A stretch of 38,707 bases of DNA from Parvibaculum sp. (GTDB lineage: Bacteria; Pseudomonadota; Alphaproteobacteria; Parvibaculales; Parvibaculaceae), in contig JAGUWA010000109.1 in NCBI GenBank assembly GCA_020062605.1, positions 1-38,707 on the forward strand, in the 5' to 3' direction. A model generated the notes under the pieces. That model made no database searches. It was not told the origin of the DNA and saw only the letters and a program-made list of their open reading frames with translations. Of the stretch, positions 3,493-21,406 are shown one piece after another; within the stretch, counting starts at the first letter, position 1; every line of letters begins with the position of its first letter. A program made the translations under genes and the position numbers.

Positions 3493-3575
3493 GTAGACTT
3501 ATCCTTGTGTCGCCTTGTGCTTTAGCGGACTGGCTGCGAGACTGGCCGGGCCACAGAATGCGGACGTTGCAGAAC

Positions 3576-5541
3576 ATGAATCATCGGAGAGACATTGATG
3601 GTTTGCGCGCCCTGGCGGTCTTGCCGGTCATTCTCTACCACGCAGGCGTGGAGTTTTTCTCCGGCGGGTTTGTCGGCGTCGATGTCTTCTTTGTCATTTC
3701 GGGTTTTCTGATCACCGGCATCATCAAGTCCGAGGTCGATGCCGGCCGGTTCTCCGTCATCAATTTTTACGAGCGGCGAGCGCGCCGCATTCTGCCGGCG
3801 TTTTTCATGATCGTCGCGGTGACGGCGGGAGTCGGCTGGTTCACGATGCTCCCCGAGGATTATCAAGGCTTCGCCGCCTCAGCCATCGCTTCGGCGCTGT
3901 TCGTCTCGAACATGTTTTTCTGGGCGCAGGCGGACAATTATTTCGACGCGCCCGCAGAGACCAAGCCGCTACTGCACACCTGGTCTCTTGCCGTTGAAGA
4001 ACAGTTCTATCTGATTTTCCCTGTCGCCATTCTTGTCATCATGTTCTTCATTTCGCGTTATCGGCGCAAGGACGCCATGCTCGTCCTCATCATCGCGGCG
4101 GCGACCCTCCTCTCCTTCGCTGTGGCGGTCTGGGCGACGAGCCACAAGCCCGTCGCTGCATTTTACTGGCTGCCCAGCCGCGCCTGGGAACTGATGCTCG
4201 GATCGTTGCTGGCGCTGGGTGCCGTGAAACCGGCCCGGCGTCAGTGGCATGCGGAGGCCGCCGCGTTCATCGGCGTCGCCTTCATCGTGGCGGCGATCTT
4301 CGGCTATTCGAGGACGACGCCTTTTCCGGGTCTGAGCGCCCTGCTGCCGACGCTGGGCGCAGCCGGTATTCTTTATGCCGGTCTCGACGGGCGCGCGACG
4401 GTCGCCGGGCGCGGACTCAGCCTTCTGCCGTTCCATTTTGTGGGGCTCATTTCCTATTCGCTCTATCTTTGGCATTGGCCGTTGATCGTCTTCAACAAGA
4501 TCTATTTTGGCGAAGAGACCAGCCCTGCCGTCGTCGCCGGCGTGATCCTGGCATCCTTCGTTCTGGCCACATTGTCGTGGCGCTATGTCGAGGGGCCTTT
4601 CAGAAAAAAGCCCCCCCCCCCCCCCGCGCCTCACGCGGGCACGTATTTTCGCTCTCTCCGCCGCCGCCGTCGCGCTGACGGTCGTCCTGTCCGCCGGCAT
4701 CGTCTGGCGGGATGGCTTCCCCGGCAGATTGTCTCCACGGGTGGAGGTGATCATGGACCGGCACCAGTATGAGGACGCGCGATATGGAGAGTGCCACCGC
4801 GCTTCGGAATTGCACCTGAAGGCGGATGACCTTTGTCTCCGCGGCGCGCCGGGACGGGCGGCAAGTTTCGTGCTGATTGGCGACAGCCACGCGGCCGCTC
4901 TGGCGGCGGGCGTTTTTGCGGCGGCAAAAATATCCGGCGTGGCGGGCTATCAGCTCACGGATTCAGGCTGGCGGCCAACCTATCCCTATATTCGTCTGTC
5001 GCGGGACAGCCAGGACCTCTGGATGAACGAGCAGCTTCGGCAGGTGCTGTCGGACAAGGCGATAGATCGCGTGGTCGTTATCGTGAACTGGGCCTCGGCG
5101 GTCGGCCAGACCTATATGCTGAACGCCAAGCCGGTGGCTGGAGCGGAAGCGGTGCCCGCCGCGCTCGTGGCGCTTGTTCAACGCCATCCTGAAAAGAAAT
5201 TCGTCCTGCTTGAGGATACGCCTTGGGCGCGCACGTTCGGCGTGAGAAATCTGGCGCAGGCGATGATGTTCAACCGCCCGTTCGATCCGAAAATTCCGGT
5301 CGATGAATACAAGCGTGAGTGGCGCCGGACGCGCGACGTGCTGAGGCCCCTGGAGCGGCTGCCGAATGTCGAATGGGTGGACATCTCCGACAGCTTGTGC
5401 GACGAGCGCTTCTGCCACGGCCAGCGCAACGGCGAAACGCTCTATTACGACGCCGACCATCTGACCAGCCAGTTCGCCGAGAGGCAGGCGGACAGGATTG
5501 CTCGCATATTCGGAAACGATCAGTCAGGCCGCGACCGGTAA
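3576..5541 (+). pseudogene. Acyltransferase-3 (OafA/YrhL-like) plus SGNH domain protein, split by a +1 frameshift at a C15 tract; possibly phase-variable rather than dead
   Basis: Frame 1 (MNHRRDIDGLRALAVLPVILYHAG...VDVFFVISGFLITGII...HTWSLAVEEQFYLIFP...) reads to the poly-C tract. The second frame (PRLTRARIFALSAAAV...FVLIGDSHAAALAAGVF...YYDADHLTSQFAERQADRIARIF) continues to 5541. Removing one C restores a ~654-aa protein. Confidence 0.88.
4611..4625 (+). repeat. Homopolymer tract of 15 C inside the acyltransferase reading frame
   Basis: Direct count: gaaaaaag followed by 15 C then gcgcctcacg. Confidence 0.95.
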
Positions 5542-7254: not shown

Positions 7255-8400
7255 ATGTCATCCAGGCTCCGCATCGTCCATGTCATAACCCGCTTCGTTA
7301 ACGGCGGGGCGGACGAGAACACGCTCCTGACCTGCAACCATCAAGCCGAAGCAGGGCATGAGGTCTGGCTCGCCTACGGGCGGGACTGGACGGAGCGCAT
7401 GCGCGGCCAGCTCGATCCGCGCGTCAGGGCGGTGGCGATTCCATCGCTGGTGCGGGAGATTTCGCCGGCGAAGGATGTTGCTGCCTTGTGTGCGCTGGCG
7501 AGACTTTATCGCCGCGTCCGCCCCGACATCGTCCACACGCATACGAGCAAGGCCGGCATTGTGGGCCGTCTCGCCGCCTTGGCCTGGTTGCCCGCGAGGG
7601 TCGTTCACGGCGTGCACATCCTCCCCTTCACGAGCGAGCCCTTTCCGAAACGCATCATGTATGTCCTGCTGGAGCGGCTCGCGGCGTTGCGCACCCATGC
7701 CTTCATCGATGTCAGCGAGGGCATGCGCGACCTCTGCCTCGAATATGGGCTGGGGACGAATGACAATCACTTCGTCATCCGGAGCGGCATGGATGTGGAG
7801 CGATTTCGCGACGCATTGCCCGCGGACGATCTCTTGGCCTTGCGACAATCCTGCGACGGTGCCGTGATCGCCGGCTACGTCGCCGTCCTCGAAAGGCGGA
7901 AAAGGCATCTCGAACTCCTGAAGGCGTTGGCGCCGCTGCTCGCGAAGAACAGGGACCTGTTCCTTGTGCTCGCGGGCGACGGTCCGGAGCGTCCGGAGCT
8001 CGAACGGTTCGTGCACGACAAGGGTATCGCCGGGCGTGTGCGCATCCTGGGCTTCCGGGAGGATGTGGATCGGGTGGTCTCCGGCTGCGACATCTGCCTG
8101 TTCGCCTCGCAGCGGGAAGGCTTGCCCCGCTCGGTCGTCCAGTATGTCATTGCGGGGAAACCCGTCGTCGCTTCGGCGCTTCCGGGCATCGAGCGCGTCG
8201 TCCGCGACGGCGAGAACGGTTTCGTGGTGGCGGGGGACCGGCTCGATGGCATTGCCGAGGGGCTGGAGAAGCTGATGCGGGATACCGGACTTCGCGCAAG
8301 CTTCGCCGCCGCCAGCGCCGCAACCGATCTGTCCGAGTGGGACGCGCGTATAATGACGGACCGGATCGGGAGTGTGTACTCTTGGGTGCGTCATGATTAA
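7255..8400 (+). CDS. Glycosyltransferase family 4
   Basis: MSSRLRIVHVITRFVNGGADENTLLTCNHQAEAGHEVWLAYG...IVHTHTSKAGIVGRLAAL...LFASQREGLPRSVVQYVIAGKPVVASALPGIERVV. The upstream ORF extension to 5896 is antisense to another GT and is not accepted. Confidence 0.92.
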   Translation: MSSRLRIVHVITRFVNGGADENTLLTCNHQAEAGHEVWLAYGRDWTERMRGQLDPRVRAVAIPSLVREISPAKDVAALCALARLYRRVRPDIVHTHTSKAGIVGRLAALAWLPARVVHGVHILPFTSEPFPKRIMYVLLERLAALRTHAFIDVSEGMRDLCLEYGLGTNDNHFVIRSGMDVERFRDALPADDLLALRQSCDGAVIAGYVAVLERRKRHLELLKALAPLLAKNRDLFLVLAGDGPERPELERFVHDKGIAGRVRILGFREDVDRVVSGCDICLFASQREGLPRSVVQYVIAGKPVVASALPGIERVVRDGENGFVVAGDRLDGIAEGLEKLMRDTGLRASFAAASAATDLSEWDARIMTDRIGSVYSWVRHD

Positions 8401-9688
8401 TTACCTGCTTCCCCTCACCATCACGTGCCTCTTTCTGCCCTTCAGGGATCAGTTCGGGCCGGTGCAGGTGCGGCCGTTCGATGGCATGGTCGTTCTCCTG
8501 CTGTTGGCATCGCTGCCGCAGGCGGCCGCGATGCTTCGTTCGAAGCTCTCGCTCGGCCTTATTCTCATCGTTCCCTTTCTTGTCATTCACGTCCTGTCGG
8601 CGTTCACCCATTCAGGCACAAATGGCATTCGTGAGCTGCTTCAGGCCTCATTGCTCTTCGCGGTGGCGTTTCTGATCAACTTCCATGCGGACAAGCTGGA
8701 CTACAGGAAAGCGGGAGCGGTGTTGCTGGTCGGTATGTTCGCCGTCATGGCCTACAACATCGGCTGGCATATCAGCCAAGGGTTCTGGTCGGGATGGAAG
8801 AGGCTCCTCGACCCCAAGGCGGTGTTCTCGTTCTTGCCTATGCTGCTCGGTGTCCATCTCCTTCTCACGCCAAAGCATCAAAGAAGGACGTACTGGATTT
8901 TATGGTGGGTCGTCGGCATTGCAATTGTGTTGTCGGGCGAACGCAAGGCACTACTCGCTTATGCGCTGCTTTCGGTGGCGTTTATCGGCCGCGGGCAGTT
9001 GCGCCTGGTGGCACCGATTGCGGCCGTCGGGTTTGCGGGACTGGTGATTTTCGCGGGCCTCACGGATAACCGGTACCTTGCGAAGCAGCTGGATTCGATT
9101 CTGGAGCCATCTCCCACTCAACTGTCGTTGGGCGCGCTGGCTTCCGGTGATATACCGCGGTCGCTCAGCAACGCCTCGCGCGAATTTCAGATGGCGCAGA
9201 GCGCCGAGCTAATGTCGAAGCATCCCGTCTTCGGCGTTGGCACGAATGCATATGTCGATTTGATCATGCAGCGGTTCGGATCGCTTCCCCGCTACCTGAA
9301 GCAGGGGGTGCACAACGAGTTCCTCAGGGTGTTTGTTGAGAACGGGGTAGTCGGTTTTGCTGCCTATGTCACCATCTGGCTCGTGGCAACGATACGACTC
9401 TGGACGCTCGCGACGAGGCTCCATCAGACAGGTTACTTCGATGCGATGCGGGCCAGATTGCTGACGGCAACGCTTCTGGTTCCGCCGTTCTTCTATGTGG
9501 CTTTGGAGGCGTCCGGAACCCGCGTCATCATGGCGGGGATTGTAGTCAGCCTGTCTCCGGATGTTTTGCGGCTCGCCACCTATCGGTCCATCCGTACGGT
9601 AAGGCAAGAAAGCCGATACGGCCTGGAGCCGCCTGAGACCAATGGGACCCTCGCCGGCCACAGGCAGAGTTCGTCCGCAGGAAAGTGA
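8393..9688 (+). CDS. O-antigen ligase / polymerase family membrane protein (Wzy- or WaaL-type)
   Basis: Polytopic protein with the conserved loop KHPVFGVGTNAYVDLIMQRFG...YLKQGVHNEFLRVFVENGVVGFAAYVTIW, typical of PF04932-like proteins. Confidence 0.87.
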   Translation: MINYLLPLTITCLFLPFRDQFGPVQVRPFDGMVVLLLLASLPQAAAMLRSKLSLGLILIVPFLVIHVLSAFTHSGTNGIRELLQASLLFAVAFLINFHADKLDYRKAGAVLLVGMFAVMAYNIGWHISQGFWSGWKRLLDPKAVFSFLPMLLGVHLLLTPKHQRRTYWILWWVVGIAIVLSGERKALLAYALLSVAFIGRGQLRLVAPIAAVGFAGLVIFAGLTDNRYLAKQLDSILEPSPTQLSLGALASGDIPRSLSNASREFQMAQSAELMSKHPVFGVGTNAYVDLIMQRFGSLPRYLKQGVHNEFLRVFVENGVVGFAAYVTIWLVATIRLWTLATRLHQTGYFDAMRARLLTATLLVPPFFYVALEASGTRVIMAGIVVSLSPDVLRLATYRSIRTVRQESRYGLEPPETNGTLAGHRQSSSAGK

Positions 9689-11711: not shown

Positions 11712-12107
11712 ATGCCGCAAACAGGCTTCCGTGAGAGGGCTCGATTTTTGAGGATTCTCTATTTCATAAACGGCTTCGATCCCGGTGGCGCCGAGCACGG
11801 GTTGCTGACGCTTGTCGAGAGCGGGTTCTTTTCCGGTCACGAGCTGGACATAGCCGGCATGTGCCGGGGACGGGGCGATCTGGCCGAGACGCTCCGAAGG
11901 GCGGTGGGGGAGCAACGCTTTCATATCGCGGGTGAGAGAGAAAAGTGCGAGAACGAACTCAAAATGCTCAGGGTGTCCGGTTACGTTGCAACGCTTCGCG
12001 GGGGAATATCCACGATTGATGTCCGCAGAAAATTATCAGGTTCGAGAAAGGTGGGCTTTTCTCCGTGCAATCCGCCATTTGGAAGACTGGCGGGCCAACA
12101 TAAATAA
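11712..12107 (+). pseudogene. Truncated N-terminus of a GT4 glycosyltransferase, paralogous to the intact gene at 20303-21406
   Basis: FLRILYFINGFDPGGAEHGLLTLVESGFFSGHELDIAGMCRGRGDLAETLRRAVGE matches MRILYFINGFDPGGAEHGLLTLVESGFFSGHDLRVMGICRGRGGLADALRASLGE. Similarity stops near 11945 and the rest overlaps the 3' end of a convergent gene. Confidence 0.85.
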
Positions 12108-13341
12108 AATTCTCCTTGATGCCTTCTCCCACATCGATCTTCGAGATGTCGGCACGTGGAGAAGATGCGACTTGCTTCCACATTTCGGCTCCCCGGCCGA
12201 TAGCGGGGACGGATTGAACCAACGTCAGCAGGGCGAGAGGTAGCAGCACGGTCATACCGGTCACTATGAACAGCCGTTCCAGCTTCATCTGACGGAGAAT
12301 GTGGAACAGGATCAAAGCCGAGCAGGCGATTGCAGGAAAATAATATCGTGTTCCGCCCCTTATGAACGCATCTCCCTGTTTTGAGGCAGCGAAGGCTATA
12401 AGTGTCGCAAGAGCGAAAATGGCCAGCAGAAAAATAGCTGCATTCTCTTTCCGAGATGTGGATTTGTTCCGCATATATTCAATGAAAGAGGGAATGTAAT
12501 AAATGGCTGCTGCCATGGATAGAACCAGAGAACTCAGCCTAACGACACCAGGCAGGTTCAGTCCGCTTAATCCTCTGCCGTTGGTTATGCTGGAAAAAAA
12601 TACCGGGAGGTTTGTCAGCAGATTTGTCGCCATGGTACTCATAGTTCCACCGCGTGCCTGATCGCCGCTTTCTCTCAATATGAAAAAGGCGAAGATCGTG
12701 GCGGCAGTCAGAACGATGAGTTTCGCATCACGACGCATGAAGGCCGAAACCGCAAGCGCCGGCACGGCACAAATGGAGAGGGGCGACGCAAAGCAGAGAA
12801 TTAGCGCAATGCAGAAAATTCGCCAGGGTAGAGGTCTCTCGTTCAATACTGCCCCACCCCCGATCAGCGCTAGAATGAGAATAGAAGGCCAGATCGTATA
12901 GGTCAGGTTGGCAAAGTAGATGGGGTCGTAGCGGAAGAAGTACAGGCCAAGAAGACCGACCGCGATTGCGGCATTCCAGCATCTGTGTGCGATCGCGATC
13001 AGCAGAAGCCAGATAACCGCGGCAACGCTTGCATACATAAGGGGCTGAAGTACCGCCGGGAGTGCGGAAAAGCTCCAGGCGAGCAGTTGTGGGTGGAAAG
13101 AAATATATCCCTGATAATAGAATAAGACAGTGGCGTCCGAGATGCCGTTAAATCTGTTGAAGAGGACACTGGCGTCCTCTGCGGTCAGAAACTTCGTGAA
13201 AACGGTTACCGTGGAAAAGACGATGCTCGTGGCGAATATGATCCACAGCAGTTTTTTCGGTTCCGGTTCGAGGCTCGCTGCGTATGCGTTCTTTTCCTGC
13301 AGATAATGGAGTGCCTCGTCTACAAAGGTCTTGTGACGCAT
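11968..13341 (-). CDS. Polytopic membrane protein, candidate GT-C-type glycosyltransferase of unknown specificity
   Basis: 457 aa with many hydrophobic segments. First loop KFLTAEDASVLFNRFNGISDATVLFYYQGYISFHPQLLAWSFSALP has an acidic pair after TM1 and a GY.sfhPqLlAw.fsaLP pattern seen in GT-C-like proteins. AT-richer than its surroundings. Confidence 0.6.
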   Translation of the reverse strand: MRHKTFVDEALHYLQEKNAYAASLEPEPKKLLWIIFATSIVFSTVTVFTKFLTAEDASVLFNRFNGISDATVLFYYQGYISFHPQLLAWSFSALPAVLQPLMYASVAAVIWLLLIAIAHRCWNAAIAVGLLGLYFFRYDPIYFANLTYTIWPSILILALIGGGAVLNERPLPWRIFCIALILCFASPLSICAVPALAVSAFMRRDAKLIVLTAATIFAFFILRESGDQARGGTMSTMATNLLTNLPVFFSSITNGRGLSGLNLPGVVRLSSLVLSMAAAIYYIPSFIEYMRNKSTSRKENAAIFLLAIFALATLIAFAASKQGDAFIRGGTRYYFPAIACSALILFHILRQMKLERLFIVTGMTVLLPLALLTLVQSVPAIGRGAEMWKQVASSPRADISKIDVGEGIKENFIYVGPPVFQMADCTEKSPPFSNLIIFCGHQSWIFPREALQRNRTP

Positions 13342-13493
13342 GCTTCACCTTCTCCGAATGGATGATCTTCCGCGCAAAGACAGGAGCAACGTCCTGAAAT
13401 TTCAGAATACCTTAAAGCCTTTGCATTGATTGTACAGATAGGGTAATCGCCTGACAGGTGCCGCTCCTGACCGGGTTAGGGTCAAGCGGCTTC

Positions 13494-13935
13494 GGGTGTC
13501 GTTTTCATCTTCGCATTCTCCTTTTTCGGTAGTCCATCTGTGAAGGCCTTTTGCGGGGTGCGCCCCTTCATGGCGCGGGCGCTTGGTGTTGTAGACCACC
13601 AGGAAGGCGTCGAGGTCTTTCTGCATCTCCTCGATGGTCTCGTACCACTTCTTGCGGCCCATGACTCTGAAGTGCTCGTCGAGCAGGGTGCGGTGCAGGC
13701 GCTCGACAAAGCCGTTGGACTGCGGGCGTTTGACCGGGTGGTGCGGTGCTCGATCTCCTCGAGTTGGAGGAAGAGCTCGTAGGGATGCTGGTCCGGCCGG
13801 CCGCAGAACTCGCGGCCGTTGTCGCTCAGGATCGTGGTGATCCGGGCCTTGTGCTGCTCGAAGGTCGGCAGCACGTCGGTGTTGAGCAGATGCACGGCGG
13901 TGACTGGCGTCTTGTTGGGATAGAGCCCGGCCCAG
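13494..13935 (-). pseudogene. 3' remnant of an rve/DDE transposase (IS481-like), frameshifted and 5'-truncated
   Basis: Across two minus-strand frames: GLYPNKTPVTAVHLLNTDVLPTFEQHKARITTILSDNGREFCGRPDQHPYELFLQLEEIEHRTT / KRPQSNGFVERLHRTLLDEHFRVMGRKKWYETIEEMQKDLDAFLVVYNTKRP / AMKGRTPQKAFTDGL. Confidence 0.82.
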
Positions 13936-13961
13936 GGGCCTGTCAGTAATTTTGTGCGTGA

Positions 13962-14483
13962 GGCCGTTGGGGCAGGCCTTCTCGGCGCGGGGTAGTACGA
14001 GCGCGACATCCGGCGCCTGGCCGAGCGCGCTGTTCCCGTCCGATGTGATCCCGACAAGCGGCATCGAAAAGCGTTTGGCGAAGGTGATGGTCGAGGTGAG
14101 TTCGACGCTTTCGCCCGACCAGGAGAGCGCCGGAATGGCGTCATCCTTCGTGACCATGCCGAGATCGCCATGAGGCCTTGCCCGGATGGACGAACTGCGC
14201 GGGCGCGCCGGTGAAAGGCGAGCGTCGCAACGATCCTGCGGCCGATATGGCCCGATTTGCCCATGCCCGTCACGATGACGCGGCCCGCGCGGCGATGGCC
14301 CTCGCCGTCCTCGCCCCTTACGCCCGCCAGCGGCTCGACCGCGCCGGAAAACGGGCCATCCAGCGAGACGGTCATCTGTTTTGGACCATCGATTTCGAGC
14401 TCCAGCGTCCGCCGGGCGGAAGCGAGGTGATCGTGCGGTTGGGCTGTCTCCGGTGAGGCGGCGCCGGCCTTGCTTTTCGACAA
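13962..14483 (-). pseudogene. kdsD: KdsD/KpsF-type arabinose-5-phosphate isomerase remnant (SIS domain only, frameshifted, no CBS domains)
   Basis: ARRTLELEIDG...GRVIVTGMGKSGHIGRRIVATLA in one frame, then GDLGMVTKDDAIPALSWSGESVELTSTITFAKRFSMPLVGITSDGNSALGQAPDVALVLPRAEKACPNGL in another. Stops where CBS domains should begin. Confidence 0.82.
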
Positions 14484-14716
14484 ATCGGACTCCTGAAAAG
14501 GTTAATGGTGCCCGGCCGGTCCCCTTTTCCAGCCGGCTGCGCCGGTGTTGTTTGCATCTTCTTGTAGCAGGGGAAGAGGCCGAAGCGGAATCGTCCAATA
14601 CGGTAAAGGAAGTCGTGGGTTTGGCTGCTTTCAGCCGGTTCCTTCACCCATCCCGATGTTCTACACTCCGCGGCAGACGACCAAGCAAGGGCTTGGCATC
14701 AAGGGCTTGGTATCAT

Positions 14717-15736
14717 ATGCAGCGTATCTCCCCACGCTGGCGGCAGGGCGCGATCACGGTGACGGTGCTGGCCCTTGTCGGCTATCTCGTGATGTCTGCC
14801 ATGTCCGATGGCCGCCGCCTGATGGAAGCGGGCGTTGCAATAGGGTGGGGGCGGCTCGCGGCGGTACTGCTGCTTTCGGTCGTGAATTATGCGCTGCGCT
14901 TCTGGCGGTGGCAGTTTTACCTGGGCTGGCTCGGCCATGGCGTTCCGGCGGGCCGCAGTCTTCTCATCTATCTGAGCGGATTTGCCCTTACGGTAAGCCC
15001 TGGCAAAGCGGGCGAGGCGGTGCGCTGCCTCTATCTGCGGCAGGATGGCGTTCCCTACGCCACCGGCCTAGCGATGATGTTTGTGGAACGGCTTATCGAC
15101 CTCGTCGCCATTTTGGTGCTTGCCTCATTCATCCTGCTGGCGCGTCAGGATCTTTCCTGGATGGTCGGCCTTTTCGGCATTTGCCTCGTTCTGGGGCTCG
15201 CTGTGCTGCATCACCGTCATACGCCGGAGATGTTGAGCGCGCTTGGCAAGCGTTTCGGTGGACGGGTTGCAACGGCGGCGGACTGGCTTTCAACGACGCT
15301 CATGCATGCCCGCGGCCTTCTCGGCTGGGGGCGCCTTGTTCCGATACTCCTTATTGCAATCGTTTCATGGGGCGCGGAAGGTGTCGGTGTGTGGGTGCTC
15401 GCCGCCGCTTTTCCCGCCGGTCCCGATCTTGCACTTTCAATCGGGGTTTACGGTTTGGCGATCCTGGCCGGTGCGGCAGCGGTTTTCCTGCCTGCGGGCC
15501 TTGGCGGAACGGAGGCTGTGATGACGGGTCTTCTGCTGGCGGCAGGGCTTGCGCTGCCTGAAGCGGTGGCGATCACGCTGATCTGCCGGCTCGCTACATT
15601 GTGGTTTGCCGTGGCGGTGGGCGCTGCGGCGCTTCTCTGGCTCGAATATCGCGGTGGCGGAGGAGAGGGCGCGCGCGACATGAATGCCTCCGAGATTCCT
15701 CAGGGCAAGATTCATCAGGGAGAGGCTTCCCAATGA
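14717..15736 (+). CDS. Lysylphosphatidylglycerol synthase TM region / UPF0104 (PF03706-like) membrane protein, possible lipid-linked sugar flippase
   Basis: Polytopic; RFWRWQFYLGWLGHGVPAGRSLLIYLSGFALTVSPGKAGEAVRCLYLRQDGVPYATGLAMMFVERLIDL...FLPAGLGGTEAVMTGLLL. Confidence 0.82.
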   Translation: MQRISPRWRQGAITVTVLALVGYLVMSAMSDGRRLMEAGVAIGWGRLAAVLLLSVVNYALRFWRWQFYLGWLGHGVPAGRSLLIYLSGFALTVSPGKAGEAVRCLYLRQDGVPYATGLAMMFVERLIDLVAILVLASFILLARQDLSWMVGLFGICLVLGLAVLHHRHTPEMLSALGKRFGGRVATAADWLSTTLMHARGLLGWGRLVPILLIAIVSWGAEGVGVWVLAAAFPAGPDLALSIGVYGLAILAGAAAVFLPAGLGGTEAVMTGLLLAAGLALPEAVAITLICRLATLWFAVAVGAAALLWLEYRGGGGEGARDMNASEIPQGKIHQGEASQ

Positions 15737-17175
15737 ATGAAACGGCTCGGTTCGGAGCGGACTCCGTTCTCTGCGTCGATCTCGATGGCACGCTCTCACG
15801 CACGGATACACTGATCGAAACCCTGCTGATGCTGGTCAAGCAAAAGCCGCTGGCGGTGTTGCTGCTGCCTCTCTGGCTCATGCGCGGCAGGGCCGCGTTC
15901 AAGGCGGCCGTTGCGCAATCGGTCAGGTTCGATCCCGAGGATCTTACCTATAACGAGGAACTGGTTGACTGGCTCAAGGCCGAAAAGGCGCGGGGCCGGC
16001 GCATCGTGCTTGCGACCGCTGCCGATGAGCGGATAGCCCGGCCGATTGCAGAGCATCTCGGTGTTTTCGACGATGTTGTTGCCAGTGACGGATCGGCGAA
16101 CCGCAAGGGAAAAGCCAAGGCGGAGGTGCTCCGCGATGCCTATGGCACATTCATCTATGTGGCCAATGGCGACGTGGACGTGCCTGTCTGGGAGGCTGCC
16201 GATGGTGCCGTGCTTGTCGCCGGTTCCCCACGCATCGCCAAGCGGCTCGCCGGACGGGTTGCATTCGACCGTGTTTTCGAACCGGCTCCCGCCAAGGCGA
16301 CCTGGCGGCTCTGGCTGAAGCAGCTCCGGCTTCATCAATGGGCGAAGAACGGGCTTATGTTCGTGCCGCTGGTCCTGTCGCATCAGATCGCCGATCCGGC
16401 GCAATTCCTCAAGGTGCTGGCGGGTTTCTTCGCCTTCAGCCTTTGTGCATCCGGTGTTTATGTCCTGAACGATCTGCTGGACCTGGGATCGGATCGCCGT
16501 CACGCAACGAAAAAGAACCGGCCTTTCGCCGCGGCATCCCTGCCGCTTGAGCAGGGGCTTATTGTGTTTCCTCTGCTGCTCATCCCGGCCTTCGCCATAG
16601 CGCTTTCGACCAGCCTTCCCTTCGCCGGTGTGCTGGTGGTCTATTACTTTCTCACACTGGCCTATTCCTTCGATCTGAAGAAGCGCGTGCTGGTCGATGT
16701 CTTCACGCTGGCCGGTCTCTATACGGTGCGTATCGTGGCGGGCGGCGTGGTCGCGAGCATCCACCTGTCTCCCTGGCTACTGGCCTTTTCGATCTTTCTC
16801 TTCCTCAGTCTTGGCATTGTGAAGCGCGTGGCGGAGCTGGAGGCATCCTCCAGACGCGGTATCACGGAACTGCGTGGGCGGGGCTACAGATCGGATGATG
16901 CGCCCATTATGACTGCGCTGGGCGTGGCGTCCGGTTATGCCAGCGTCGTCATCTTTTCGTTGTATATCAGCGCGCCGGACAGCCGGGCACTCTATCCACA
17001 TCATGAGTTTTTGTGGCTCTTCGTGCCCCTCATCCTTTTCTGGATCAGCCGGGTCTGGCTTCTGACATGGCGGGGCGAGATGCATGACGATCCAATCGTC
17101 TTTGCACTGAAGGACCGCGTGAGTCAGTTGACGGCCATCGCCGCGGCCAGCGTTCTTCTCATTTCGGCGATTTGA
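15733..17175 (+). CDS. HAD phosphatase-UbiA prenyltransferase fusion, DPPR-synthase-like
   Basis: N-terminal HAD motifs LCVDLDGTLSRTDT, VLATAA, NGDVDVPV. UbiA motifs YVLNDLLDLGSDRRHATKKNRPFAAASL and YSFDLKKRVLVDVFTLAGLYTVRIVAGG. ATGA overlap with the upstream gene. Confidence 0.88.
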   Translation: MNETARFGADSVLCVDLDGTLSRTDTLIETLLMLVKQKPLAVLLLPLWLMRGRAAFKAAVAQSVRFDPEDLTYNEELVDWLKAEKARGRRIVLATAADERIARPIAEHLGVFDDVVASDGSANRKGKAKAEVLRDAYGTFIYVANGDVDVPVWEAADGAVLVAGSPRIAKRLAGRVAFDRVFEPAPAKATWRLWLKQLRLHQWAKNGLMFVPLVLSHQIADPAQFLKVLAGFFAFSLCASGVYVLNDLLDLGSDRRHATKKNRPFAAASLPLEQGLIVFPLLLIPAFAIALSTSLPFAGVLVVYYFLTLAYSFDLKKRVLVDVFTLAGLYTVRIVAGGVVASIHLSPWLLAFSIFLFLSLGIVKRVAELEASSRRGITELRGRGYRSDDAPIMTALGVASGYASVVIFSLYISAPDSRALYPHHEFLWLFVPLILFWISRVWLLTWRGEMHDDPIVFALKDRVSQLTAIAAASVLLISAI

Positions 17176-17179
17176 GGTC

Positions 17180-18493
17180 ATGACCGACGAATTCCAGAGC
17201 TGGGGACGGTATCCGCGTGTCGGCGATCAGCACGTCGTCCGGGCGCGCGACCGCCATGCCTTGCCGCCATTCGATGCGGGCAGACCCAATCTTGCCTATG
17301 GCAATGGGCGATCCTATGGCGATGTGTGCCTGAATGAGGGGGGAACGCTCATTGCCATGCGCGGTCTCAACCGGTTCATCGCCTTCGATGAGGAGGCGGG
17401 GGAACTGGTTTGCGAAGCGGGAGTGCTGCTCGCCGACATACTCGATCTCGTGGGACCAAGGGGCTGGTTCCTGCCGGCGGCGCCCGGCACGAAGTTCGTG
17501 ACGGTGGGCGGCGTGATCGCGAATGACGTACATGGCAAGAACCATCATCGTGTCGGCACATTCGGGGCGAATGTGCTGGCGTTCAGCCTGTCGAGATCGG
17601 ATGGATCGCATCTGCACTGTTCGCAGACGGAGAATCCGGAGCTCTTTGCGGCGACGATCGGCGGGCTTGGGCTTACCGGCGTCATCACGCAAGCGCGGCT
17701 CAAGCTGCGCCCGGTCAAATCGGGTTATTTCGAGGGTGAGCAGATCAAGTTCCGCACGCTGGACGAGTTCTTCGCCCTCGCCGAAGAGTCCGAAGACCCC
17801 TATGAATACACAGCCGCCTGGATCGACTGTCTTGCCGAGGGGGAGACGCTCGGCCGCGGGCTTTTCATGCGGGCCAATCACGCCGAGACGGGAGGTTTCG
17901 AGGCGCCGCGTTCATTGCCGCTGGCCATGCCGGCGACGCCTCCTCTTTCTCTCGTCAACCGGTTGAGCCTGGGCGTTTTCAACACGCTTTACTACGAACG
18001 TCAGCGTACTGCGGTGGTCGTGCGGCGCTGGCACTACAATCCATATCTTTTTCCGCTCGATACGATTGCGGACTGGAACCGGGTTTACGGGCCCAAAGGC
18101 TTCGTCCAGTACCAATGCGTGGTGCCGATGGCCGATGCGCGGGATGCTTCCCATGCATTGCTGACGGAGATCAGCCGGTCGGGCCAGGGCTCGCCGCTGG
18201 TCGTGTTCAAGACTTTCGGCGATGTGGTATCGCCCGGCATGCTGTCTTTTCCGATGAAGGGGGCGACGCTTGCTCTCGACTTTCCGATGGCCGGGGGGAA
18301 GACGCTTTCGCTCCTGGATCGACTGGACCGGATCGTGGCCGAGGCCGGTGGCCGATTGTATCCGGCCAAGGACGCGCGGATGACAGGCGACATGTTTGAA
18401 AAGGGATATCCGGCCTTCGGGCAATTCGTGAAGCATGTCGATCCGGCTTTCGGGTCGAGTTTCGGGCGCCGGGTTTTGAGGGGACAAAGATGA
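17180..18493 (+). CDS. FAD-binding oxidoreductase, DprE1-like (decaprenylphosphoryl-beta-D-ribose 2-oxidase family)
   Basis: AYGNGRSYGDVCLNEGG, GWFLPAAPGTKFVTVGGVIANDVHGKNHHRVGTFGANV, GGRLYPAKDARMT; order and motifs match DprE1. Confidence 0.88.
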   Translation: MTDEFQSWGRYPRVGDQHVVRARDRHALPPFDAGRPNLAYGNGRSYGDVCLNEGGTLIAMRGLNRFIAFDEEAGELVCEAGVLLADILDLVGPRGWFLPAAPGTKFVTVGGVIANDVHGKNHHRVGTFGANVLAFSLSRSDGSHLHCSQTENPELFAATIGGLGLTGVITQARLKLRPVKSGYFEGEQIKFRTLDEFFALAEESEDPYEYTAAWIDCLAEGETLGRGLFMRANHAETGGFEAPRSLPLAMPATPPLSLVNRLSLGVFNTLYYERQRTAVVVRRWHYNPYLFPLDTIADWNRVYGPKGFVQYQCVVPMADARDASHALLTEISRSGQGSPLVVFKTFGDVVSPGMLSFPMKGATLALDFPMAGGKTLSLLDRLDRIVAEAGGRLYPAKDARMTGDMFEKGYPAFGQFVKHVDPAFGSSFGRRVLRGQR

Positions 18494-19224
18494 AGCGCGT
18501 GGCGATTTTCGGGGCAACCTCAGCAATTGCCGAGGCGGCTGCCCGCGAATGGGCGGGGGAAGGGGCCCGGTTCTTTCTGGTCGGACGTAACGAAACGGCT
18601 CTCGGCGATATTGCCGCCGACCTCAAAGTGCGCGGGGCGGAAGAGGTAACGATCCGGACGGCGGATCTGATGGAAATGGAGGGGCTCGCGAAGCTTTGCC
18701 ACGAGGCCGAAGGCGCGCTTGAAGGGATCGACATTGCGTTGATCGCGCATGGCGTTCTGCCGGACCAGGCGGAGGTTTCCGCGTCGGCGGAGCAGCTTCT
18801 GAAAAATTTGGCTGTCAACGCGCTGAGCCCGGCGGCGCTGATGGTCGAATTGGGACAGATCATGAAGCGCCAGCAGCATGGCAGCCTGGTTGTGATGTCG
18901 TCGGTGGCTGGCGACCGCGGGCGGCCCAGCAACTGGGCCTATGGCGGCGCCAAGGCCATGCTTTCCGTCATGGGGGAGGGTATGGGAATGGAACTCGAGG
19001 CGGCCGGTGTGAGTGTGATTGTATGCAAGCCGGGCTTTGTCGATACGCCGATGACGGAGGCTTTCAAGAAGGGACCGCTCTGGGCGGCGCCGGCGCAGGT
19101 GGCGGGGCCAATTGTGCGAGCGGTTCAGAAAGGGCGAAGTTGTGTCATATATGCCCCGGCTTGGTGGCGAATTGTCATGCTGGTTGTCCGTTTTGCCCCT
19201 GCTTTCATCGTTCGGCGCTTATGA
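18490..19224 (+). CDS. SDR-family reductase, DprE2-like
   Basis: MKRVAIFGATSAIAEAAAREWAGEGARFFLVGRN, VVMSSVAGDRGRPSNWAYGGAKAML (S...YxxxK), CKPGFVDTPMT; ATGA overlap with the DprE1-like gene. Confidence 0.87.
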   Translation: MKRVAIFGATSAIAEAAAREWAGEGARFFLVGRNETALGDIAADLKVRGAEEVTIRTADLMEMEGLAKLCHEAEGALEGIDIALIAHGVLPDQAEVSASAEQLLKNLAVNALSPAALMVELGQIMKRQQHGSLVVMSSVAGDRGRPSNWAYGGAKAMLSVMGEGMGMELEAAGVSVIVCKPGFVDTPMTEAFKKGPLWAAPAQVAGPIVRAVQKGRSCVIYAPAWWRIVMLVVRFAPAFIVRRL

Positions 19225-19285
19225 TCGGCAGGACGCTTGCGCACGCGAGCCTTGCACGGCTTCTTTTTTCCGATGGTGACCTGTG

Positions 19286-20248
19286 ATGCTCGCTTCCCTG
19301 AAATCCGTTGAACATATACTGGCAAGCCCGAGCGACCCCGCTGCGCCGGTGGACCTCACATGGCGTGGCGATGCTTTGACGGAAGCGAAGGTGAACGACA
19401 GGGAGGGCCGGTCTGTATCGATGCCTCTGATATCGGGGCAGCCCATCCTGATCGACTTCGACGAAAGCGCGGTGTCGCGGCAGTGGTTTGAGGAGAAGCG
19501 CGAAAGTTACTCCCTCGTCGCGGAGCGGCGCAGCCTCCCGCGCGCGATCAAGGCGCGCCTTTTCGGGACCTATGGGGTGAGCAAGCGGAATTTCGAAAAA
19601 TTCAGCCGGGAGATTGCGTCCGGGCAGCCCGGTCCTCGGTTTGTGCTGATGGTGGGTGCCGGTCAGAGGGGCATGGGCACCGAGATACTCTATGACGATC
19701 CGGACACGGCCTTGATCGCATTCGACATCTATCCCTCGCCGTTCACGGTGTTCGCGGCCGACGCCCACCGGATACCTCTGAAGAGCGAATCCGTCGACGC
19801 CGTATGCATCCAGGCCGTTCTGGAGCATGTTCTCGATCCCGCCTGCGTCGTGTCAGAAATCCTTCGCGTTTTGAAGCCCGAAGGCGTCGTCTATGCGGAG
19901 ACGCCGTTCATGCAGCAGGTGCATGAGGGCGCTTCGGATTTCACCAGGTTCACCGAACTCGGACATCGCTGGCTGTTTCGCGATTTCGACACGATAGAGC
20001 GCGGGGCGATCGGCGGACCCGGACTTTCCGTGTACTGGTCGATGAAGTACTTCTTCCGCGGGCTGACTCGCAGCCGGAAGCTTGCCAACATTCTGAGCCT
20101 GCCATTCGGGCTCCTTGCGTTGTTCGATGCCGTGATGCCGCCCGGTCAGGTTATCGACGGCGCGAATGGTGTCTATTTCATCGGGCGAAAATCCGGCAAG
20201 CGGCTAGGATCGCGTGACATCTTCGAACAATATCTCGGCGCGCAGTGA
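19286..20248 (+). CDS. Class I SAM-dependent methyltransferase
   Basis: FVLMVGAGQRGMGTEILYDDPDTALIAFDIYPSPFTVFAADAHRIPLKSESVDAVCIQAVLEHVLDPACVVSEILRVLKPEGVVYAETPFMQQ. Confidence 0.85.
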   Translation: MLASLKSVEHILASPSDPAAPVDLTWRGDALTEAKVNDREGRSVSMPLISGQPILIDFDESAVSRQWFEEKRESYSLVAERRSLPRAIKARLFGTYGVSKRNFEKFSREIASGQPGPRFVLMVGAGQRGMGTEILYDDPDTALIAFDIYPSPFTVFAADAHRIPLKSESVDAVCIQAVLEHVLDPACVVSEILRVLKPEGVVYAETPFMQQVHEGASDFTRFTELGHRWLFRDFDTIERGAIGGPGLSVYWSMKYFFRGLTRSRKLANILSLPFGLLALFDAVMPPGQVIDGANGVYFIGRKSGKRLGSRDIFEQYLGAQ

Positions 20249-20302
20249 CCGGCGTGCTTATCCTTGTCTGCATAAAGAGATAATGCTGTTTCTGCGAGAG
20301 CC

Positions 20303-21406
20303 ATGCGCATTCTTTATTTCATAAACGGATTCGATCCCGGTGGCGCCGAGCACGGGTTGCTGACGCTTGTCGAGAGCGGGTTCTTTTCCGGTCATGATCT
20401 TCGCGTCATGGGCATCTGCCGCGGGCGAGGAGGGCTCGCGGATGCGCTGCGTGCCTCGCTCGGCGAAGGGAACCTGAAAATCGTCGACGACCGGGAAAAC
20501 CTCACTCTTCGCGCCTGTGTTGCGGCTGCCTTCGCGCTGGCGCGGGAGATCGGGCTCTTCCGTCCGGACGTCGTTGTCCTTTCCCTGAAGCAGGCCAATG
20601 TGATCGGCCGTCTCGTGCTGCAGGCATTTCCCGGTCCACGCTGCGTCTCCTTCGAGCACATCTCCCGCTACCGTGCCCGCCGTGCCGAAGCGGTTTACGG
20701 GAAGCTCCTCGCCGCCTTGTCGGGGCGCGTGGACGAGGTCTGGTCGGATTGCAAGGAAACCCTCGAGGCCACGCGTCCCTATTTCAGGAAGCCGGGACGG
20801 CGCGAAGCCGTCGTCCCCCTGTTCCGCGTCCGGCCCGGCGGCGCGGTCAAGACGGATTATTCTGTTGGCACGCCGCTCAGGATTGCCGCCGCCGGACGCC
20901 TTGTCGACCGGAAGAATTTCGACCGGCTCATTCTCGCGGTGAAGGCGCTTGCCGACCGGGGAACACCGGCGGCGCTTACGATATTCGGAGACGGACCCGA
21001 GCATGAAAGGCTGGAACATCTCATCTCCAGTACCGGTCTTGAAGGTCAGGTGCGGCTCGCGGGCTATCGGGACCGGTGGTTCGAGGAGGCGGCCAACGGC
21101 GATCTCTTCGTCAATGCGAGCGACACGGAAGGTTTCTGTATCGTCGTTGCAGAAGCAATGTCCGTCGGTCTGCCGGTGGTGGCGACCGATGTGGGCGGGA
21201 TCAGGGAATATGGCCGCGACGGCGACAACATGCTGAAGGTCGCCGATGCCGGCATCGAGACGCTCGTGGTGGCGATACAGAAGCTGGCGGGTGACGAAGG
21301 GCTTCGCCGGTCGCTCGGTCTGCGCGCCCGGGAAGACATATGCCGCCGCTATTCCGAGGCGGGCATTGCAGAACGTGGACGTTCGGTCCTCGGCGAGGCC
21401 CGGTAA
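20303..21406 (+). CDS. Glycosyltransferase family 4
   Basis: MRILYFINGFDPGGAEHGLLTLVESGFFSGHD...IAAAGRLVDRKNFDRLILAVKAL...TIFGDGPEHERLEHLI...NASDTEGFCIVVAEAMSVGLPVVATDVGGIREYG. Confidence 0.93.
   Translation: MRILYFINGFDPGGAEHGLLTLVESGFFSGHDLRVMGICRGRGGLADALRASLGEGNLKIVDDRENLTLRACVAAAFALAREIGLFRPDVVVLSLKQANVIGRLVLQAFPGPRCVSFEHISRYRARRAEAVYGKLLAALSGRVDEVWSDCKETLEATRPYFRKPGRREAVVPLFRVRPGGAVKTDYSVGTPLRIAAAGRLVDRKNFDRLILAVKALADRGTPAALTIFGDGPEHERLEHLISSTGLEGQVRLAGYRDRWFEEAANGDLFVNASDTEGFCIVVAEAMSVGLPVVATDVGGIREYGRDGDNMLKVADAGIETLVVAIQKLAGDEGLRRSLGLRAREDICRRYSEAGIAERGRSVLGEAR

Follow-up and report, generated by a model that had tools for sequence, protein, structure and literature searches.

Several described pathways for lipid-linked pentofuranoses resemble a four-gene cassette at positions 14717-19224 of a 38,707-nucleotide stretch of Parvibaculum sp. 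DNA (GenBank assembly GCA_020062605.1, contig JAGUWA010000109.1), referred to as the window. In Citrobacter youngae, a fusion of HAD and UbiA domains makes polyprenyl-phosphate-ribose, as established with membrane assays, defined lipid substrates and mutants; this synthase is encoded within an O-antigen locus, and a glycosyltransferase (GT) of the GT-C type uses such a donor (Kelly et al. 2024, PMC11127046). In the same study, homologs of DprE1 and DprE2 accompany glycans containing arabinofuranose (Araf). The C. youngae O1 and O2 loci share with the Parvibaculum window a HAD-UbiA gene, a candidate flippase gene and genes for known or predicted epimerizing enzymes embedded in a polysaccharide locus (PMC11127046). 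They differ in that their flippase candidate is a small four-helix MATE/EmrE-like protein rather than a member of PF03706, that the O2 system employs a single short-chain dehydrogenase/reductase (SDR) for xylose instead of a DprE1/DprE2-like pair, and that their GT-C enzyme is known (GT136), whereas none was identified for the cassette in the window.

The mycobacterial pathway (Rv3806c, Rv3807c, DprE1, DprE2 and Rv3789) appears, from sequence comparison, to follow the same succession of chemical steps, and its DprE1 and DprE2 are the closest solved structures to the Parvibaculum pair. Mycobacteria use a phosphatase, Rv3807c, where Parvibaculum has a fused HAD domain, and their flippase is Rv3789, a member of the GtrA family, in the place proposed here for a PF03706 protein. 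The Parvibaculum lipid is presumably undecaprenyl. In another example, the rhizobial noeCHOP genes, which correspond to UbiA, GtrA, flavin adenine dinucleotide (FAD) oxidase and SDR genes, serve the arabinosylation of Nod factors (PMC2443382, PMC6689892). As represented in Azorhizobium and Sinorhizobium alkalisoli, they likewise combine UbiA, a flippase-type protein, an FAD oxidase and an SDR in a single run of genes, but they place GtrA between the UbiA and oxidase genes, encode a UbiA protein without the HAD DxD motif, and have a Nod factor as acceptor. Lastly, the flippase domains of MprF and AglD belong to the same Pfam family as the first cassette protein and, judging from its model, adopt the same fold; the MprF domain translocates lysyl-phosphatidylglycerol (PMC5898192). 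Unlike these domains, the cassette protein stands alone and belongs to a clade of its own, linked to genes for pentose lipids.

Given the work of Kelly et al., the noeCHOP genes and the presence of DprE1-like genes in 59 of 399 sampled Pseudomonadota genomes, the reading of the cassette as an arabinose-lipid pathway is probably correct but not new. An earlier note on this DNA had regarded the use of such a pathway in a polysaccharide locus as notable in itself, and D-arabinosylation as known in a few Gram-negatives. With the C. youngae precedent (PMC11127046), the similar make-up of noeCHOP and the count of 59 genomes, neither view is supported. What we propose as new is the occupant of the flippase slot, namely PF03706 as a third flippase type in DprE1 cassettes.

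The cassette comprises four intact open reading frames (ORFs):

14717-15736, + strand: PF03706/TIGR00374 membrane protein of 339 residues, candidate flippase for a polyprenyl-phosphate pentofuranose (Pfam score 132 bits against a cut-off of 33.4)
15733-17175, + strand: fusion of HAD (putative phosphoribose phosphatase) and UbiA, 480 residues, predicted polyprenyl-phosphoribose synthase (NF006088, 635 bits)
17180-18493, + strand: DprE1-like FAD oxidase of 437 residues (NF053785, 352 bits; PDB match to DprE1, E=4e-74)
18490-19224, + strand: DprE2-like SDR reductase of 244 residues (best PDB match DprE2, 21gq_C, E=6e-27)

The first and third junctions are ATGA overlaps (15733-15736 and 18490-18493), and four bases separate the UbiA and DprE1-like genes. 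The earlier description of four consecutive, co-directional genes with two such overlaps is thus borne out by the ORF coordinates and by Pfam matches that all exceed their cut-offs (in addition to PF03706, UbiA 69 bits, HAD 37, FAD_binding_4 65 and adh_short 103). Such an arrangement is not a product of chance, since the gene order is kept in Parvibaculum indicum and the metagenome-assembled genome (MAG) CPC32, with 74-75% DNA identity over 5.3 kb, and the order HAD/UbiA-DprE1-DprE2 is seen repeatedly through Pseudomonadota. The HAD-UbiA protein is 78-79% identical to its counterparts in P. indicum DSM 25305 and CPC32. The source assembly itself amounts to 2.77 Mb in 453 contigs and is 79.5% complete.

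The four genes would act together as a unit for producing a lipid-linked pentofuranose donor and presenting it. The HAD-UbiA protein would convert phosphoribosyl pyrophosphate (PRPP) to polyprenyl-phosphate-ribose, with the HAD domain stripping the 5-phosphate, after which the DprE1-like oxidase and DprE2-like reductase would invert C2 to yield polyprenyl-phosphate-D-arabinofuranose. The PF03706 protein would then carry the donor across to the periplasmic side, filling the slot that belongs to GtrA or EamA/SMR-like proteins in other cassettes, and a GT-C enzyme would add Araf to the polysaccharide of this locus. The analysis shows the gene content, the conserved active sites, the order of the genes in different genomes, flippase families that do not overlap, and the phylogenetic placement and modeled fold of the PF03706 protein; from these we infer the activities, the identity of the sugar, its flipping and its acceptor. 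The core of this scheme, a lipid-linked Araf donor served by a PF03706 flippase irrespective of the acceptor, is assigned a probability of about 0.72. Its enzymatic portion, the synthesis of polyprenyl-phosphate-D-arabinofuranose, is very likely on sequence grounds.

Evidence for the flippase assignment comes from a survey of about 70 DprE1 loci (71 counted) from other genomes and plasmids. Near dprE1, mostly within 8 kb of it, PF03706 genes occur at 14 of these loci, GtrA genes at 21 (19 recognized by hidden Markov model and two by record annotation) and EamA/SMR-like genes at six, and no locus has two of the three. With 69 loci treated as independent, the chance of such an absence of overlap is ~0.003 for PF03706 and GtrA and ~3.5e-5 for all three families being disjoint, values that are optimistic because the loci and genomes are related. 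A similar pattern holds within Parvibaculum, where a PF03706 protein of the cassette clade is present in six of eight genomes with a cassette and in none of the 17 others (p ~1.6e-4, again among related genomes). No GtrA was found in the source genome or in its closest cassette-bearing relatives (G015 and G020), and the only PF03706 member found in the 79.5% complete source assembly is the cassette protein.

Phylogeny also sets the cassette proteins apart. Fourteen of them, drawn from five family-level groups, form a single clade (98/95) separate from 18 other PF03706 proteins, some of which are paralogs from the same genomes. This clade was defined after a first tree, following which the labels of the G004 and L108 proteins were changed and one long-branched protein was omitted; the same 14 proteins already grouped at 96/94 in the first tree. 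A test that all initially labeled cassette members form a single clade was rejected on that first tree, because the G004 protein, 27 kb from its cassette, had been counted as a member and the L108 protein, 6 kb from its cassette, had not. Gene position varies among the cassettes: PF03706 is upstream of UbiA in Parvibaculum, beside DprE1 elsewhere, and follows UbiA and precedes a PMT_2 GT-C gene in G117. A second Parvibaculum cassette (L052, contig C1 of G007) encodes a UbiA protein without a HAD domain and has PF03706 in the interval between UbiA and DprE1. For the AlphaFold2 model of the PF03706 protein from the window (mean predicted local distance difference test, pLDDT, 84), MprF structures are the sole significant PDB matches, with a Foldseek E-value of 3.9e-05 against Pseudomonas aeruginosa MprF. 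For different reasons, PF03706 had already been put forward as a family of flippases (PMC5898192), and no report of it in cassettes of this kind was found in a search of freely accessible literature.

On the combined strength of family non-overlap, co-occurrence within the genus, the clade, the MprF-like model and the earlier flippase proposal, it is reasonably likely that the PF03706 protein flips the lipid-linked pentose here. The role of candidate flippase, first suggested in the earlier note, therefore survives the comparative tests as a prediction. A broader formulation is favored with slightly more caution, namely that this distinct PF03706 clade constitutes a third, non-homologous class of flippases dedicated to polyprenyl-phosphate pentofuranoses and able to stand in for GtrA or EamA/SMR-like proteins, and they for it, in the DprE1/DprE2 cassettes of several Pseudomonadota families. 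If so, a substrate class could be assigned to one branch of PF03706, a large family, and the cassettes in which the three types replace one another offer a natural set for a direct genetic swap.

A number of observations weigh against the scheme. At about 30 of the ~70 loci no flippase of any of the three types was detected, which leaves the survey incomplete, and its related genomes are not independent. Two Parvibaculum genomes with cassettes (G003 and G004) are without a member of the PF03706 clade, and the resemblance to MprF (TM-score ~0.55) speaks for the fold and not for the substrate. The oxidase and reductase score below the equivalog cut-offs of NF053785 (352 against 500 bits) and NF053786 (167 against 250 bits), respectively. 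Finally, no GT-C arabinosyltransferase was found, and a nearby orphan membrane protein defies classification. Some of these points also favor the alternative that the enzymes do make polyprenyl-phosphate-D-arabinofuranose while an unlinked transporter flips it, leaving PF03706 with another job such as moving bare undecaprenyl phosphate or another lipid. PF03706 is indeed a broad family with both lipid-translocating and unknown members (PMC5898192), its role in flipping is a prediction, and the cassettes of G003 and G004 are not the only ones without the clade. Such a division of labor is nevertheless unlikely, as PF03706 never stands beside GtrA or EamA/SMR-like genes in the surveyed loci, the cassette proteins form a clade of their own that tracks the cassette within the genus, and the source genome, G015 and G020 yielded no GtrA.

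The UbiA domain has one convincing solved-structure match, Rv3806c of Mycobacterium tuberculosis (PDB 8j8j, E=1.3e-27). Eleven site residues were compared, most of them described with the structure of Rv3806c (PMC10994848) and the others belonging to the NDxxDxxxD motif (NDLLDLGSD in the window); all are identical (R22, K28, Y70, N73, D77, D81, K87, R90, Y138, K143 and Y157). The same 11 are also identical in a noeC-type protein of Sinorhizobium, and the one other comparable UbiA protein of the source genome differs at R22, K28, Y70 and K87. The fused HAD domain matches PF12710 and contains a DLDGT nucleophile motif with the catalytic aspartate. From its sequence, the fusion is most likely a polyprenyl-phosphoribose synthase of the C. 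youngae ORF15 type. HAD-UbiA genes were also observed in Pontiellaceae and Spirochaetes MAGs (L036 and L037) with no DprE1 or DprE2 homolog detected within 10 kb; these loci are possibly ribose- or xylose-type systems.

For the oxidase, the next family after DprE1 in the PDB is matched at only ~1e-11. Among site residues of DprE1, nine of the 12 clearly aligned ones are kept (Y60, G117, H132, K134, W230, Q334, Q336, K367 and K418) and three are replaced (S228A, N385T and C387A); Y314 is not among the clearly aligned ones. As for the alanine at the position of mycobacterial C387, a similar LALDFP-type motif is the sole one found in 41 of 71 homologs. The reductase contains YGGAK, which fits the SDR motif YxxxK, and scores 245 bits with NF005489 (cut-off 267). 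Models for decaprenylphosphoryl-phosphoribose (DPPR) synthase score the HAD-UbiA protein at up to 145 bits, also below their cut-offs. The likeness to Rv3806c, DprE1 and DprE2 advanced in the earlier note thus stands with respect to the best PDB matches and fails with respect to the NCBIfam cut-offs for DPPR synthase, DprE1 and DprE2; because of the latter, the last two cassette proteins are named DprE1-like and DprE2-like. The 500-bit DprE1 cut-off is reached by none of the 399 sampled Pseudomonadota genomes and for this reason appears to be tuned to actinobacterial sequences. A gene for BacA, the undecaprenyl pyrophosphatase, lies close to dprE1 in three other genomes (L086, L090 and L157).

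The scores of the DprE1-like and DprE2-like proteins below their cut-offs, together with the altered S228 and N385 and the existence of pathway variants for xylofuranose and ribofuranose (PMC11127046), would also fit a diverged pair of enzymes whose donor stays ribose or becomes another pentofuranose epimer. This is quite improbable, as most of the catalytic-site residues checked are kept, the xylofuranose system relies on one SDR epimerase rather than on an FAD oxidase plus SDR, and DprE1/DprE2 homologs went with Araf glycans in the Citrobacter study (PMC11127046). The route from PRPP through polyprenyl-phosphate-ribose to polyprenyl-phosphate-arabinose put forward in the earlier note hence remains the preferred sequence-based reading, in keeping with the site residues, the best PDB matches and the precedent of Kelly et al.

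The cassette resides in a polysaccharide locus. The window encodes a Wzx-like protein (PF13440), a Wzy_C protein, GT4 and GT2 glycosyltransferases, GDP-mannose dehydratase-type enzymes and two Bac_transf initiating transferases. Features around the cassette include:

8372-9688, + strand: Wzy_C polymerase/ligase (PF04932, 62 bits), with a homolog on the cassette contig of CPC32
11968-13341, - strand: orphan multi-spanning membrane protein of 457 residues with ~8 hydrophobic segments, a speculative GT-C candidate
19283-21406, + strand: genes for a methyltransferase and a GT4 glycosyltransferase, located after the cassette (Pfam assignments; GT4 homolog on the CPC32 cassette contig, E=1e-140)

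Genes for polysaccharide export (Poly_export/SLBB, a BBP2_2 porin and Wzz) come after the cassette in CPC32, and the same contig holds homologs of the GT4, Wzy_C and Wzx genes of the window. The association of the cassette with polysaccharide genes is therefore not peculiar to this contig; in G006 and G016, too, the cassette has homologs of some of the CPC32 export genes nearby. A reading of the genes that flank the cassette in related genomes as core genes (lpt/rpoN) was rejected, as their Pfam matches identify an exopolysaccharide export locus. Attachment of Araf to the polysaccharide of this locus is the favored acceptor assignment, if less firmly so than synthesis of the donor, and it would mark Parvibaculum as a likely source of a D-arabinose-containing polysaccharide.

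The orphan protein at 11968-13341 is a candidate for the GT-C arabinosyltransferase by position only. It has no convincing homolog in Pfam, NCBIfam, the PDB, plasmids or 399 genomes (three weak partial matches), and its AlphaFold2 model, built from one sequence, is uninformative (pLDDT 45). Its gene has a GC content of 0.517 compared to 0.614 for the window. Unlinked PMT_2 GT-C proteins of the genus were not adopted as the arabinosyltransferase; they fall mostly into two related ArnT-like groups and none was detected in the incomplete source genome or in G007.

The upstream border of the cassette carries probable traces of mobility:

13570-13740 (approximate), - strand: C-terminal remnant of an IS481-family transposase (NF033577, E=6e-13, residues 287-342 of the ORF at 13402-14598)
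13960-14483, - strand: truncated kdsD (arabinose-5-phosphate isomerase) gene of which the 5' half is left, split over two frames

Positions 13961-19226 of the window (5.3 kb) are colinear with CPC32 and P. indicum from the kdsD 5' half to the end of dprE2. The kdsD fragment is 80-82% identical to the kdsD of these two genomes over residues 1-89 and 77-79% over residues 105-175, compared to 69% for the intact kdsD of the source genome (contig C420). The truncated fragment adjoins IS481 debris, and its first part is closer to the P. indicum gene than the intact copy is. On the simplest account of the sequence, horizontal transfer brought in the block together with half of a neighboring kdsD. That the cassette is a mere passenger of recombination or insertion sequence activity that does not serve this polysaccharide, or that the IS481 debris marks a wrong join in the contig, would suit the extent of the homologous block, the adjoining debris and the fragmented assembly, but is very unlikely given four intact ORFs and the recurrence of export, GT4, Wzy_C and Wzx homologs alongside the cassette in CPC32, and of some export homologs in G006 and G016.

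Two further observations concern the remainder of the window. At 3507-5541, ORFs for an AT3 acyltransferase and an SGNH protein, two domains known to Pfam as a fusion, lie in different frames and overlap (~4585-4772), which suggests a frameshift or an assembly error. In addition, 143 bp of coding sequence for GT4 occur twice, at 11754-11896 and 20309-20451, with 83% identity between the copies, the first copy lying inside a truncated GT4 fragment.

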